From positions 1 through 64,000 of the forward strand of contig JAFTRN010000005.1 in NCBI GenBank assembly GCA_017462265.1: 64,000 bases of DNA, read 5' to 3'. The first letter of the stretch is position 1, and each line of letters begins with the position of its first letter. A program made the position numbers and the translations under genes. This DNA is from Coprobacter sp. Lineage in GTDB: Bacteria; Bacteroidota; Bacteroidia; Bacteroidales; UBA11471. The notes below the pieces were generated by a model. The model did no database searches and was not told the DNA's origin. It saw only the letters and a program-made list of their open reading frames with translations. Positions 12,201-57,752 of this stretch are shown in pieces.

Positions 12201-12266
12201 TAAGAAGCTGTTTGAAATTTTCTTAAAAAAATTATTACGGCTTCAAAAAACAAAGTTTCGGCTTCT
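12201..12266 (+). repeat. Dispersed repeat copy A (between psd and pssA)
   Basis: A sequence starting TAAGAAGCTGTTTGAAATTT, with the internal core AAATTATTACGGCTTC and ending TTTCGGCTTCTA. It is shared with copy B at 13001-13066 (same strand), copy C at 21922-22005 and copy D at 55145-55206 (minus strand). It ends 24 bp before the pssA ATG. Confidence 0.85.
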
Positions 12267-13003: not shown

Positions 13004-13066
13004 GAAGTTGTTTAAAATTTTCTTGAAAAAATTATTACGGCTTCTAAAAAACATTTCGGCTTCTAA
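13001..13066 (+). repeat. Dispersed repeat copy B (overlaps pssA stop)
   Basis: Starts TAAGAAGTTGTTTAAAATTT and keeps the core AAATTATTACGGCTTC and the end TTTCGGCTTCTA of copy A. The first three bases serve as the pssA stop codon. It ends 14 bp before the DUF4834 ATG. Confidence 0.85.
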
Positions 13067-21921: not shown

Positions 21922-22005
21922 TAGTAGCTGTTCTAAATTTTCTTGGGAAAATTATTACAGCTTTAAAAGACAAAGTCTTCAAATAAAATTCAAACAGCTT
22001 CTTAA
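21922..22005 (+). repeat. Dispersed repeat copy C (upstream of nadE)
   Basis: Begins TAGTAGCTGTTCTAAATTTT, contains AAAATTATTACAGCTT like copies A and B, and ends with CAAACAGCTTCTTA, an imperfect inverted repeat of its own start. The copy is therefore about 84 bp with MITE-like ends. The nadE promoter follows at 22056. Confidence 0.75.
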
Positions 22006-53776: not shown

Positions 53777-54901
53777 TTAATCTTTCAACATCATCGGCAT
53801 CAACAACATCAGCAGGTCTTCATCGGCCTCATTTTCCATGGGGAGTATGATACCGGCACGACCGGGATCGGCCAAATCGACAATTACCTCCTGAGAATTG
53901 AGATTGTTGAGTATCTCTATGAGATAATTGGCACTGAAACCGATACTCATCGTATCGCCACTATAGTTGCAGGTAATCGACTCATTTGCCGAGGTAGAGA
54001 AGTCACTGTATTGGGCCGAAACTTCCAAGCGATTGGGCGACAGATCGAGACGAACGAGCGAGCTTGCCGGGTCGGAGAATACCGATATACGACGCAACAC
54101 ACTGATGAACAGTACACGATCGATAACCAAGCGATTGCTGTTGTTCTGAGGTATTACCGACATATAATTGGGATAACGGCCCTCGATGAGACGGCAGGTC
54201 AAAACGAAATTTGCCAACTTGAAACAAGCGCTTTTTTCATCAAAAGCCACTTCGATATCACCCGACTCTTTCGGCAAAATGTTTTTCAGCAAGTTAGCCG
54301 GTTTTTTGGGCAGAATGACCAACGAATCCATGCCGGTCTTTACCGCGGTATTTTTGCAACGTACCAAGATATAACCATCGGAGGCTACAAAGAACATATC
54401 CTCTTTATGTATATCCATGCACACACCATTCATCACGGGACGCAACTCATCATCGGCCGTTGCAAACAAGGTATGTGAAATACCGTTCAACAACACTTGA
54501 GCCGGCATGGTAAAGCGGGTTGCCGACTCGGCTAATGGGGTACGTTGGGGATATTCATCACCATTCACACCCACAAAATTATACTTACCATTTTGGTAGT
54601 TGAGGGTGATTTCCAGATTGTCGTCGTTGATGAGGAAGGTTAGCGGTTGCTCGGGCAACTCTTTCAGCGGATCGAGTAATATTTTGGCCGACACCGCAAA
54701 TACGCCTTTACCTTCGGCCTCTATCAGACCAATAGTAGTGGTCATGGTTGTTTCTTGGTCCGAAGCTGTGATTGTCAGCATATTTCCGTCAAGGCTGAAC
54801 AGGAAATTGTCGAGAATCGCCATAGAATTTTTCGAGTTTATCACACGACCTATGGTCTGTAAATGAGAGAGTAAGAGGGTACTTGATACTACAAATTTCA
54901 T
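53777..54901 (-). CDS. dnaN: DNA polymerase III beta clamp
   Basis: The ring-shaped processivity clamp of replication. It has 374 residues in three clamp folds, from MKFVVSSTLLLSHLQTIGRVI to the C-terminal GIILPMENEADEDLLMLLMPMML. The start is the ATG at 54899-54901; nine further in-frame codons to 54928 are AT-rich and without homology. It heads the leftward run dnaN-exonuclease-coaBC-DUF4835-recN-rlmB-SUMF1-like, with gaps of 3-24 bp. dnaA is not adjacent, so this is probably not an origin-proximal dnaA-dnaN pair. Confidence 0.95.
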   Translation of the reverse strand: MKFVVSSTLLLSHLQTIGRVINSKNSMAILDNFLFSLDGNMLTITASDQETTMTTTIGLIEAEGKGVFAVSAKILLDPLKELPEQPLTFLINDDNLEITLNYQNGKYNFVGVNGDEYPQRTPLAESATRFTMPAQVLLNGISHTLFATADDELRPVMNGVCMDIHKEDMFFVASDGYILVRCKNTAVKTGMDSLVILPKKPANLLKNILPKESGDIEVAFDEKSACFKLANFVLTCRLIEGRYPNYMSVIPQNNSNRLVIDRVLFISVLRRISVFSDPASSLVRLDLSPNRLEVSAQYSDFSTSANESITCNYSGDTMSIGFSANYLIEILNNLNSQEVIVDLADPGRAGIILPMENEADEDLLMLLMPMMLKD

Positions 54902-54937
54902 AATATATATTTTTTTTGTTATATACAAAACTGCTTC

Positions 54938-55206
54938 TTAGAAGTTGTTTAAATTTTATTTTGTAGAAGATAGGCTGCACTCGCTTTGCAATCTGTAAAC
55001 AAGTTTACATTGCGCTCGTTGGCTCTATCTTTCGAGATTCTTTAAGAGGTATTTTGGAATGGATTTTTCATCAAAATGTGCAGGGAATAGCGGGCTATTT
55101 CCAAGCGTTTTAATGAAAAAGAGGGACAAAAGAGCCTTAAAGAATCCGAAACTTTGTTTTTTGAAGCCATGATAAATTTTTCAAGAAAATTTTAAACAGC
55201 TTCTTT
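54938..55206. repeat. Nested inverted-repeat element between dnaN and wzc-like gene
   Basis: The outer ends are inverted copies of the dispersed repeat start: TTAGAAGTTGTTTAAA on the left (54939-54954) and TTTAAACAGCTTCTTTA on the right (55190-55206). The right end is part of copy D, read on the minus strand from 55206 to 55145. Inside are two further structures. One is a hairpin from AAGATAG (54967) to CTATCTT (about 55031), with the inner stem GTAAAC-AA-GTTTAC. The other is an 11-bp perfect inverted repeat GATTCTTTAAG (55036-55046) / CTTAAAGAATC (55136-55146) enclosing more stems (TTTTTCAT/ATGAAAAA, AATAGC/GCTATT). MITE-like; no gene is present. Confidence 0.7.
55145..55206 (-). repeat. Dispersed repeat copy D
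   Basis: Read on the minus strand, it starts TAAAGAAGCTGTTTAAAATT, continues TTTCTTGAAAAATTTATCAT and GGCTTCAAAAAACAAAG and ends TTTCGG, almost identical to copy A at 12201-12266 in the opposite orientation. Confidence 0.85.
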
Positions 55207-55346
55207 ATACAGACAATGTCTATATTAGGAAACAAATGTATATATTTTTTTTCAGAGCACCATTATCCCCCGCAATAAATTTATCAACACCACTACTAAA
55301 CATATGTGTTACAAAACAGTAAATTATGATTACAATCAATGATATT

Positions 55347-57752
55347 TCAAAGTTTGTGGTGCGTTTTTCTTTCGCTTGCAGAGGTTGTTCCATTTGCGCC
55401 ATAACCATATGTGGCCGACCGGTGATAACCATATCCATAGCGACGATAACTATATGCCCGAGTGGACATATCGACTCCGTTGATTACCAAATATGGTGAA
55501 GGAGTTCCCCCACCCGAGAGTATTTCGCTAAACATTCCGAATGTCTTGCGTGAGGTATAATGTGCCCGTACCACAAAGAGCAGTGTATCGATTTCTCGTG
55601 CCACAAGTTGTGTATCAGACACCTGTCCCATGGGTGCAGTATCGAGCACGATATAGTCATACATATCTCTCAGTTCATGCATCATAGCCGCAAATCGAGG
55701 TGATCCCAGCAGTTCATTCGGATTAGGAGGTATGGGGCCCGACGGCAATATATCAAGTCTCTCATCGACACCCGACGGCTGTATCAATGCGGAAATATCG
55801 TCGCTAATAGCCGAGAGGTAAGTCGTAACACCCTGCCGATGGGTTATCGTTGAGAAATAGTGATGCAGACGGGGACGGCGAATATCCAAACCCACCAACA
55901 ACACGCGCTTACCCACAAGAGCTAGACTCAACGCCAAATTGCTGGCAATAAACGTCTTACCTTCGCCTGAAATCATAGAGGTAACACATATCACCCGTTT
56001 ATCGCCCGAGGTCATAACAAATTGCAGATTATTACGTAACAACCTGAAAAGTTCGACTATAGGAAGCGTAGAATGTGCGGTAACTACCAATGGAGAATCA
56101 GTATCTTTGTTGATACAGATTTCGCCCATAATAGGATATGGGGTAAGTCGTTCCACATCGGAGCGATCGCGGAACTTATCGTTGAAGTAGTATCGGCCGC
56201 CAATCACCACCGCCGGTAATGCCAATGCCAGGCACAAGGCGACCGCCATTGTACGTACCGGCCTGGGAAACACCACTCGGCCCGTAGTATCGGGCTCGTC
56301 CATAATGATGGCCATAGGTACGGTGAGCGTCTTGTTTAGGGAGTTTTCTTCCCGTTTTTCGAGTAAAAACACATAGAGTTTATCTTTGATGGCCTGCTGA
56401 CGATTGATCTCGGCCGACTCACGTTGCAATCCCGGTACCTCTTGTATGCGGGTTTTAGCCTCTTTTTTCTTATTGAGCAGGTCAGCACGCACTATATTCA
56501 TATTGGCACGAGTAGATACTATACCATCTTTCACGCCTTTTCGTAATATCGCAATATCTTGATTGATGGTAATCAGCACGGGATTACTCTCGGAAACGGA
56601 ACGCAAAAGTTGCTCACGTTCGAGCAATTTCTTATTATAGGTATCGACGATATTCAGAAACGTCTGGCTGGTAATATCCACAGCAGGAATCAGAGAATAG
56701 GTATTTCGGGAATCAGACACAAATTCTTCGATATAGTTCAAGCGGTTGATTTGCGACTCTATATCGAAAAGGCGCTCCTCTACCCCGTTTGACTCATCGA
56801 GATACGAGGCGGCAGCGGCGGTAATATCAACCAATTCGTTGGTACGCATAAAATTCTCCACCTCTTTTTCGACCGAGCCCAATTCCGACGAGAGCAAACG
56901 CAGGCGCTCATCGATAAAGCGTTCGGTGTTTTCGGCCACCCGATTTTTCTCGTTTACCGACAACGCATTGTAATAATACACGACCTTGGTGAGAATGTCG
57001 CGAGCTTTCGCCACATTACTCATATCGAGCGACATATTGATTATAGCCGAATTTTTATCGACCGGGACGGCTCTCACCGACGAGGCCAATCGTTGTGCCA
57101 CCACCTTCGGGTTTTGTACCGATATGTATAGCGTTCGCTTATCGGGAGCCACCGCATTATTGCGATAGACCATAAACGAAATATCCCCTATCTCCACCCG
57201 CAACGAATCATCGATAAACCGTATCGTCGTCTCCGTCTCGTTGTATCGCACACGCAACTCATAGCCCTGCGACAAGGGGTGGGCTACTATATCGATTTGA
57301 GGCGCCACATGGCGCACCAACAACGAATCGACTGCAAGCCGCAAGGGCGTATCCCTGTATAGGACCTCACGACGCAGGCCATTTCGGGCTCGATATTCGG
57401 TATATAGTTGTAAGTCCATGACTACCTGCATCATCACATTGCGAGAGCACATTATGCCTATTTCATCGTCGATATTGGTTTTTCCCGAGGGGGTGATGCC
57501 CAGGCCGTCCATTATCAACTTCTCCGAAGAGGTTGTATTGGAATTTTCGCCCTTCATCAGTATCATGGTCGAAACCGTATATACCCTATTCTGTCGCGCC
57601 AACCACAATACCGCGCCCGATAGGCACAATACAAGACTGAGCGCAAACCAACGCCAATGCCCGAGAAAAAGATAGAACAATTCTTTCACATCGACAGGAC
57701 GAGCCACACGCTCGTTTTCACGCGAGATCAATTCTTTTCGGTCTTCCATCAT
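55347..57752 (-). CDS. Wzc-type polysaccharide tyrosine autokinase
   Basis: An inner-membrane polysaccharide co-polymerase fused to a BY-kinase, controlling chain length and export of capsule or exopolysaccharide. It has 801 residues: first transmembrane helix at about 30-50, a periplasmic Wzz-like domain with coiled coils, a second helix around residues 493-510 (VRTMAVALCLALALPAVVIGG), and a cytoplasmic kinase. Walker A is SMISGEGKTFIASNLALSLAL, Walker A' VLLVGLDIRRPRLH and Walker B YDYIVLDTAPMG. The C-terminal tail has a Tyr cluster (YSYRRYGYGYHRSATYGYG) for autophosphorylation. Its start overlaps the wza-like stop by 4 bp. No glycosyltransferase genes follow. Confidence 0.94.
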   Translation of the reverse strand: MMEDRKELISRENERVARPVDVKELFYLFLGHWRWFALSLVLCLSGAVLWLARQNRVYTVSTMILMKGENSNTTSSEKLIMDGLGITPSGKTNIDDEIGIMCSRNVMMQVVMDLQLYTEYRARNGLRREVLYRDTPLRLAVDSLLVRHVAPQIDIVAHPLSQGYELRVRYNETETTIRFIDDSLRVEIGDISFMVYRNNAVAPDKRTLYISVQNPKVVAQRLASSVRAVPVDKNSAIINMSLDMSNVAKARDILTKVVYYYNALSVNEKNRVAENTERFIDERLRLLSSELGSVEKEVENFMRTNELVDITAAAASYLDESNGVEERLFDIESQINRLNYIEEFVSDSRNTYSLIPAVDITSQTFLNIVDTYNKKLLEREQLLRSVSESNPVLITINQDIAILRKGVKDGIVSTRANMNIVRADLLNKKKEAKTRIQEVPGLQRESAEINRQQAIKDKLYVFLLEKREENSLNKTLTVPMAIIMDEPDTTGRVVFPRPVRTMAVALCLALALPAVVIGGRYYFNDKFRDRSDVERLTPYPIMGEICINKDTDSPLVVTAHSTLPIVELFRLLRNNLQFVMTSGDKRVICVTSMISGEGKTFIASNLALSLALVGKRVLLVGLDIRRPRLHHYFSTITHRQGVTTYLSAISDDISALIQPSGVDERLDILPSGPIPPNPNELLGSPRFAAMMHELRDMYDYIVLDTAPMGQVSDTQLVAREIDTLLFVVRAHYTSRKTFGMFSEILSGGGTPSPYLVINGVDMSTRAYSYRRYGYGYHRSATYGYGANGTTSASERKTHHKL

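Follow-up and report, generated by a model that had tools for sequence, protein, structure and literature searches.

The window analysed here, a stretch of 64,000 nt from a Coprobacter sp. contig, carries an element of nested inverted repeats upstream of dnaN (Table 1). The start codon of dnaN is separated from the left duplication by 36 nt. Since TTA at the left border and TTT at the right border are duplications, positions 54938–55206 comprise the element together with these duplications. Each end is a terminal inverted repeat of about 22 bp, and hairpins are nested between the two. On direct reading, the repeats given in a preliminary description match the sequence to the base. In its 65-nt hairpin, AAGATAG (54967–54973) pairs with CTATCTT (55025–55031). 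The 11-bp perfect inverted repeat is formed by GATTCTTTAAG (55036–55046), the exact reverse complement of CTTAAAGAATC (55136–55146). The outer ends, GAAGTTGTTTAAA at 54941 and GAAGCTGTTTAAA on the minus strand at 55203, belong, as had been claimed, to a dispersed repeat in inverted orientation.

Table 1. Features of the dnaN locus, in positions of the window
Feature	Position	Strand	Basis or remark
dnaN (beta clamp)	53777..54901	-	sequence, ORF, relatives' proteins
left target-site duplication TTA	54938..54940	.	TNA pattern, 50 copies
left terminal inverted repeat GAAGTTGTTTAAATTTTATTTT	54941..54962	+	sequence, genome end search, copy pairing
hairpin A module	54963..55032	+	in ~265- and ~336-bp forms, absent from ~195-bp copies
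core hairpin	55033..55152	+	covaries across species; alignment, pair counts, covariance-model matches
core apex GCAG..TAGCGGGCTA..CAAGCG	55080..55106	+	TAGCG(G/A)GCTA in 8 of 9 representatives
right spacer with T-rich tract	55153..55179	+	retained in most short forms
right terminal inverted repeat	55180..55203	-	sequence, end search, copy pairing
right target-site duplication TTT	55204..55206	.	one base off TTA (decayed)
dnaN promoter -7 box TACATTTG (TAnnTTTG)	55233..55240	-	conserved, upstream of element

Compared with dinucleotide shuffles, the element folds better on either strand (z −3.79 and z −3.86; 1 and 0 of 200 shuffles, respectively, are as good). A repeat-pair search with a 12-bp minimum returned no pairs at the element, whose perfect repeat is 11 bp long. 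Within the window, the end motif occurs five times at ≤1 mismatch, two of these being the element's own ends, against 0.14 matches expected in shuffles. The other matches (12204–12216, 13004–13016 and 21989–22001) belong to short or fragmentary copies. We also notice CAAAACTGCTTC at 54929–54940, adjoining the element; it is similar to the outer portion of the end of a different copy and may have been left behind by an earlier insertion or excision.

The element in the probable dnaN leader

DnaN proteins are 64–86% identical in six same-genus species, and the element is absent upstream of dnaN in all six. The leaders differ between species, so that the exact empty junction is not alignable base for base. 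A TAnnTTTG box, given as the −7 box consensus in PMC7366714, is found upstream of dnaN in all seven species (that of the window and the six of the same genus). Because this conserved box lies upstream of the element, the element is placed within the dnaN 5′ leader, which would have a length of 331 nt if counted from the assumed start.

As part of the dnaN mRNA, the element should form a large hairpin, in antisense (element minus strand). We infer that transcription would pass through the element, with little effect on translation and a possible effect on mRNA processing. The earlier suggestion that the element could influence dnaN transcription is retained in part: any influence would be exerted through the leader RNA and not on initiation at the upstream-box promoter. 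Sequestration of the start codon by the element was considered and rejected, as the predicted accessibility of the start region is practically unchanged (0.53 when the element is present, 0.50 when the empty site is joined). A simple scan for intrinsic terminators over 54800–55450 found none and lends no support to polarity of one orientation. Sigma-70-type sites from the same scan were set aside, as a promoter type that we did not apply to a Bacteroidales genome.

Further upstream of dnaN, 55347–57752 reads by eye as a Wzc-like capsule/EPS tyrosine kinase. What we take by eye to be a GuaA-like C-terminus precedes dnaN in four sister species (L141, L142, L143 and L146), and the different upstream neighbour suggests a rearrangement. 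TTATCAACA, which differs from the DnaA box of E. coli at a single position, is present upstream of dnaN in the window (55281–55289) and in five of the six sister species (L141–L145); in the window it is on the opposite strand.

Copies, modules and gene context

The window genome amounts to 2.32 Mb in 62 contigs and is 79% complete. A search of it for other copies of the interior, as proposed earlier, placed them at no fewer than 40 separate sites (at least 40, from the 40 scored of 172 candidates). Four of these are truncated at contig ends, which suggests that the assembly hides more copies. Terminal-repeat matches number 230 in the whole genome, against 27 for a reversed control pattern. The copies described below were fetched from about 100 listed of the 230 end places and from the 40 scored interior candidates, and form an incomplete sample.

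Pairing of the ends revealed 3-bp target duplications of the form TNA, mostly TTA (50 paired copies). The middle base is equal in 39 of the 50 copies, compared with 24.5 in shuffles, and the whole duplicated triplet in 31, compared with 19.1. This set derives from 82 end pairs, from which those of <60 bp and the loci L058, L065 and L067 were dropped and to which 11 copies were added by hand.

Forty-eight own-genome copies were oriented, and none of them lies inside a called gene. Nine copies (~66–102 bp) consist of the ends, mostly together with the right spacer, and 20 (~190–196 bp) of the ends and the core hairpin. The hairpin-A class comprises 15 copies, 13 of ~262–269 bp and two shorter ones (230 and 242 bp). 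In the remaining four (~335–336 bp), a third hairpin is added within the core. This third hairpin is about 75 bp long, is inserted at the core apex (L017, L018, L030 and L035) and has weak similarity to some palindromes of the genome G034.

The family thus displays terminal inverted repeats, target duplications, short length (~66–336 bp), multiple copies and no transposase gene, as MITEs do, and the label 'MITE-like' of the preliminary description is borne out by the terminal repeats, the TNA duplications and the many copies. On this basis, 54938–55206 is very probably a non-autonomous MITE moved in trans, of which one copy landed in the dnaN 5′ leader. Four points argue against the MITE reading: the right duplication is TTT and not TTA, searches of three genomes with PF01609 and PF13359 found no IS5-type transposase, the complete pairs of ends listed in the genome G225 are all 192–197 bp apart, and the core is conserved across distant genomes beyond what is expected for a passive MITE interior.

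Copies between co-directional genes are placed strongly one way. In the window genome, 25 of them have the (−,−) and 2 the (+,+) arrangement (binomial p 5.6e-6). The one-way orientation holds across all module classes; as the core-less short forms are equally biased (4 vs 0), the bias need not stem from the core. It may be general, since co-directional copies are 3 vs 0 in RGIG4576 and 3 vs 0 among the oriented copies of G225, two further genomes. When every neighbouring gene side is counted, the window genome gives 70 vs 17 and RGIG4576 gives 17 vs 13 (Fisher p 0.015, on sides that are not independent). Former gaps of ≤14 bp harbour 9 of the 25 co-directional copies, where single distances may be off, genes having been called by a simple codon-usage script. 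Targeting of stop codons was also considered: 11 of the 25 copies coincide exactly with the TAA stop codon of the gene upstream, compared with 9.35 expected from the available TAA/TTA sites, and hence no special targeting is claimed.

With the 269-bp element as the query at E ≤ 1e-5, none of 59 other relatives matches. The element family is carried by two ruminant-gut MAGs, RGIG4576 (Muribaculaceae, roe deer) and RGIG6483 (Bacteroidaceae, sheep). All copies examined in these two genomes, in G142 and in G225 are without hairpin A, and 18 of 20 copies in RGIG4576 measure ~195 bp. The dnaN copy had been proposed as the parent form of which isolated copies may be fragments. This view finds no support: since the copies of other species are without hairpin A, the core-only form is the likely ancestor and the window copy, with its added hairpin, an enlarged derivative. 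The ancestral unit likely consisted of two ends and the covarying core hairpin, ~195 bp in all. A separate weak match to the hairpin-A region is present in RGIG4576 (G060:C16:1152–1221; 73% identity, E 4.6e-4).

Core hairpin and hairpin A

Comparing 60 cores from three species revealed double changes at 18 of the 30 pairs, whereas slid controls give 4–7 pairs. The double-change cells number 117 against 29.7 in shuffles, and 0 of 500 shuffles are as high. These cores were kept from 118 candidates after opposite-strand palindrome readings, chance matches and the longer cores of the ~336-bp forms had been removed. In nine representatives from eight genomes, 90.3% of the pairs are canonical, and 20 of the 30 pairs occur as more than one Watson-Crick type, against 4–10 in slid controls; all these pair counts refer to copies and not to events, and the nine-representative alignment was fitted to the structure of the model. 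By eye, the unequal apex flanks GCAG and CAA are present in about seven of the nine in the same alignment. The apex motif itself (Table 1) is varied in some own-genome copies.

Searched with a covariance model, 6 of 295 Bacteroidales genomes contain the core, the window's own included, as against none in a draw of 295 further genomes across the phylum, which includes two or more members of this order; the filters were strict in both sets, and weak matches may be lost. Most of the distant matches have ends of the type seen in the window element, for example GAGCCTGTTTAAA in G225 and AGAAGCTGTTTTGA in G158, and the G225 copies are flanked by TTA/TAA. In G025, the ends are more diverged. The match in G103, with no such ends and no apex motif, is the weakest case; two cobalamin riboswitches lie close to this weak core match (L153).

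At the gathering threshold, Rfam has no family in the window. The best sub-threshold match in 54900–55250 is to a microRNA model (E 0.079), which is taken as chance. Over the element copies in 11 loci, Rfam again gave no family, and the matches in those loci are rRNA, tRNA and cobalamin riboswitches.

The element had also been called RNA-like. The check shows that the core covaries, but homogenisation of the two arms as the DNA replicates competes as an explanation. Hairpin pairing can arise and be preserved through template switching (PMC8794818). By copying one palindrome arm onto the other, such switching would keep the core paired in the absence of selection, and we regard such a mutational origin of the covariation as a real possibility, somewhat short of probable. 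The core centre of copy L006 is fully symmetric, as from one arm-copying event. By itself, however, template switching leaves the cross-genome likeness of the apex and of the unequal flanks GCAG/CAA unexplained. Because template switching can give such patterns and L006 looks like one, selection on RNA is not claimed; an RNA function of the core is unproven.

On the other hand, the core may be selected as a functional RNA structure or as a hairpin of single-stranded DNA, with the ends doing no more than spread it. In leaders and operon junctions, the copies would then serve in the processing, stability or attenuation of mRNA. We find this rather doubtful. Double changes and pairs of more than one Watson-Crick type, in numbers well above the shuffled and slid controls, speak for it together with the 90.3% canonical pairs, as does the orientation among co-directional genes (25 vs 2 in the window genome, 3 vs 0 in RGIG4576 and in G225). 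Against it, the bias is shared by the core-less short forms (4 vs 0), all gene sides in RGIG4576 (17 vs 13) reveal no clear bias, and the pairing was counted per copy on a structure-fitted alignment. The strand of a putative RNA likewise does not emerge. The plus strand folds better in 58 of the 60 cores, but we rejected this as an indication, as RNAalifold pairs favour the folded strand. Under strand-neutral Watson-Crick pairing, G-U cells outnumber A-C cells by 117 to 73 in the loosest and by 93 to 71 in the strictest setting, a ratio too weak to name a strand. A wider proposal describes a Bacteroidales-wide mobile regulatory element, whose TAGCGRGCTA-apex core is selected as an RNA or as a hairpin to which a host or transposase protein binds. 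Brought by short ends into leaders and operon junctions in the one orientation permitted, it would set the processing of mRNA between adjacent genes, and in this species it would have been built into the dnaN leader; we think this unlikely.

A palindrome similar to hairpin A is carried by a Segatella hominis plasmid (E 8e-8, 79.5% identity). This plasmid is the sole credible record of the 15 that match in a plasmid search with the element, the others having E 0.3–0.9. When the Segatella palindrome is searched for, 3 of 149 genomes match, the window's own included, which leads to two other Bacteroidales genomes. In local alignments, hairpin A scores higher than each of 200 shuffles against six of six targets, which were chosen by similarity search. 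Hairpin B does so for just two of the six, and hairpins A and B align with each other no better than shuffles do. In G034 and G027, we observed palindromes of ~70–85 bp, some in tandem arrays (L129, L132, L133, L135, L137 and L139). Several of them end in TATCTTTGC close upstream of genes that appear panB- and dgt-like by eye. Judged from their sequences, the G034/G027 palindromes are a possible family of promoter-bearing palindromes in Bacteroidales.

Hairpin A might accordingly be read as a mobile promoter, a copy of which adds or alters transcription starts of dnaN, a reading that we hold to be improbable. The related palindromes end in or near TATCTTTGC, which resembles the TAnnTTTG −7 box, and L129 has, by eye, the arrangement TTTG-N19-TATCTTTG. 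Among eight loci, seven are orientable; six of the seven face a gene of the same direction, four within 24–88 nt. However, the intact-looking end of the present copy, TATCTTTC, faces away from dnaN, and the dnaN-facing end, TATCTTCT, is a poor match to the box. Moreover, the native box is kept upstream of the element, and core-only copies share the gene context of hairpin-A copies. For hairpin A, a promoter role is a lead at most.

Mobilisation and known systems

PF01609 (IS5-type transposase) has no match in the window genome or in RGIG4576, and RGIG6483 has only a 19-bit, below-cut-off stretch with two stops. PF13359 has no match in any of these three genomes. The transposase search comprised these two families in incomplete genomes; as multi-copy IS get lost from MAGs, absence in the window genome is weak evidence. 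Among the ends listed in G225, which is 98% complete, there are 15 complete pairs, each 192–197 bp apart, and 11 unpaired ends, and no IS-sized pair. Two copies 10 kb apart, seen on two contigs of G225, were considered as a composite transposon and dismissed, both stretches being 100% identical over 16 kb. This identity of L165 and L166 (G225 C1 and C7) indicates that the contigs are probably redundant and that two of the 15 pairs are duplicates. Of the 11 unpaired ends, three were retrieved for inspection, and one more lies within L162. Two ORFs by unpaired ends were rejected as transposases, one encoding a Sde182/nucleoside-hydrolase-like protein and the other a carbon-nitrogen hydrolase; a third ORF beside an unpaired end has no Pfam match. 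Neither the G225 element nor the L129 palindromes matched any plasmid, and a phage search was likewise negative. One viral contig contains a sequence resembling an end, for which no partner occurs at ≤3 mismatches.

In the IS5 family, a 3-bp TNA duplication is the rule of the IS1031-like group, and the TNA duplications found here fit this rule. The ends also resemble, by eye, the end GAGACTGTTGCA of the P. gingivalis IS5-family ISPg4. From these duplications and this resemblance, the family is perhaps mobilised by an IS5-like transposase; since no related IS5 transposase was found, we do not file the element as an IS5 member.

For the non-autonomous MITE that we favour, we propose that its ends are recognised in trans by a transposase, perhaps of IS5 type, which places it at TNA sites, TTA in most cases, and duplicates 3 bp. 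In this way, the gene-less element would have reached its high copy number in the present species. Hairpin A, a palindrome that resembles a promoter and has another origin, would have entered the ~195-bp unit later. Both the order of module gain and the transposase type are what we infer.

Our analysis delimits, in an order of dominant gut bacteria, a modular MITE family that is absent from Rfam and whose core is conserved in structure. It provides a base-level example of an element entering the leader of an essential gene, as well as very tight gene junctions, with the genes unbroken. The conserved core poses a testable question, namely whether an RNA or single-stranded DNA hairpin is selected or the palindrome is kept up by template switching.

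Modular dispersed structured repeats are known as BOX elements in pneumococcus. The Chunjie MITE of Geobacter is size-variable (178–235 bp) with many partial copies, and is likened to the present family by description and not by sequence. In PMC10969869, the Correia elements of Neisseria are described as high-copy MITEs, some with promoters; one lies just downstream of the mtrCDE promoter, and RNase III cuts Correia transcripts at the terminal repeats. They belong to another phylum, whereas the present family has a covarying core and nested palindromes, and the likeness is again one of description, not of sequence. ERIC of Enterobacteriaceae and Vibrionaceae is presented in the same source as a mostly intergenic MITE, whose insertion at a 3′ end can alter mRNA via an RNase E site (PMC10969869). 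Its lineage is different, the likeness is by description, and the effect on mRNA is known for ERIC alone.

The MITEs of P. gingivalis (MITE464/PgRS, BrickBuilt), together with ISPg1/ISPg4, have IS5-type ends such as GAGACTGTTGCA, and one P. gingivalis element contains another MITE, as reported in PMC4596501. The present family is like them in being from Bacteroidales, but differs in its ends (GAAGCTGTTTAAA or GAGCCTGTTTAAA), its TNA duplications, the lack of a minisatellite and the covarying core. Among the papers listed in literature searches, there was no description of this element family, which looks new, its kind (MITE) being known from other bacteria. For a well-supported MITE, two of its traits are uncommon: a core conserved in structure across Bacteroidales genera, and a strongly one-sided insertion between co-directional genes.
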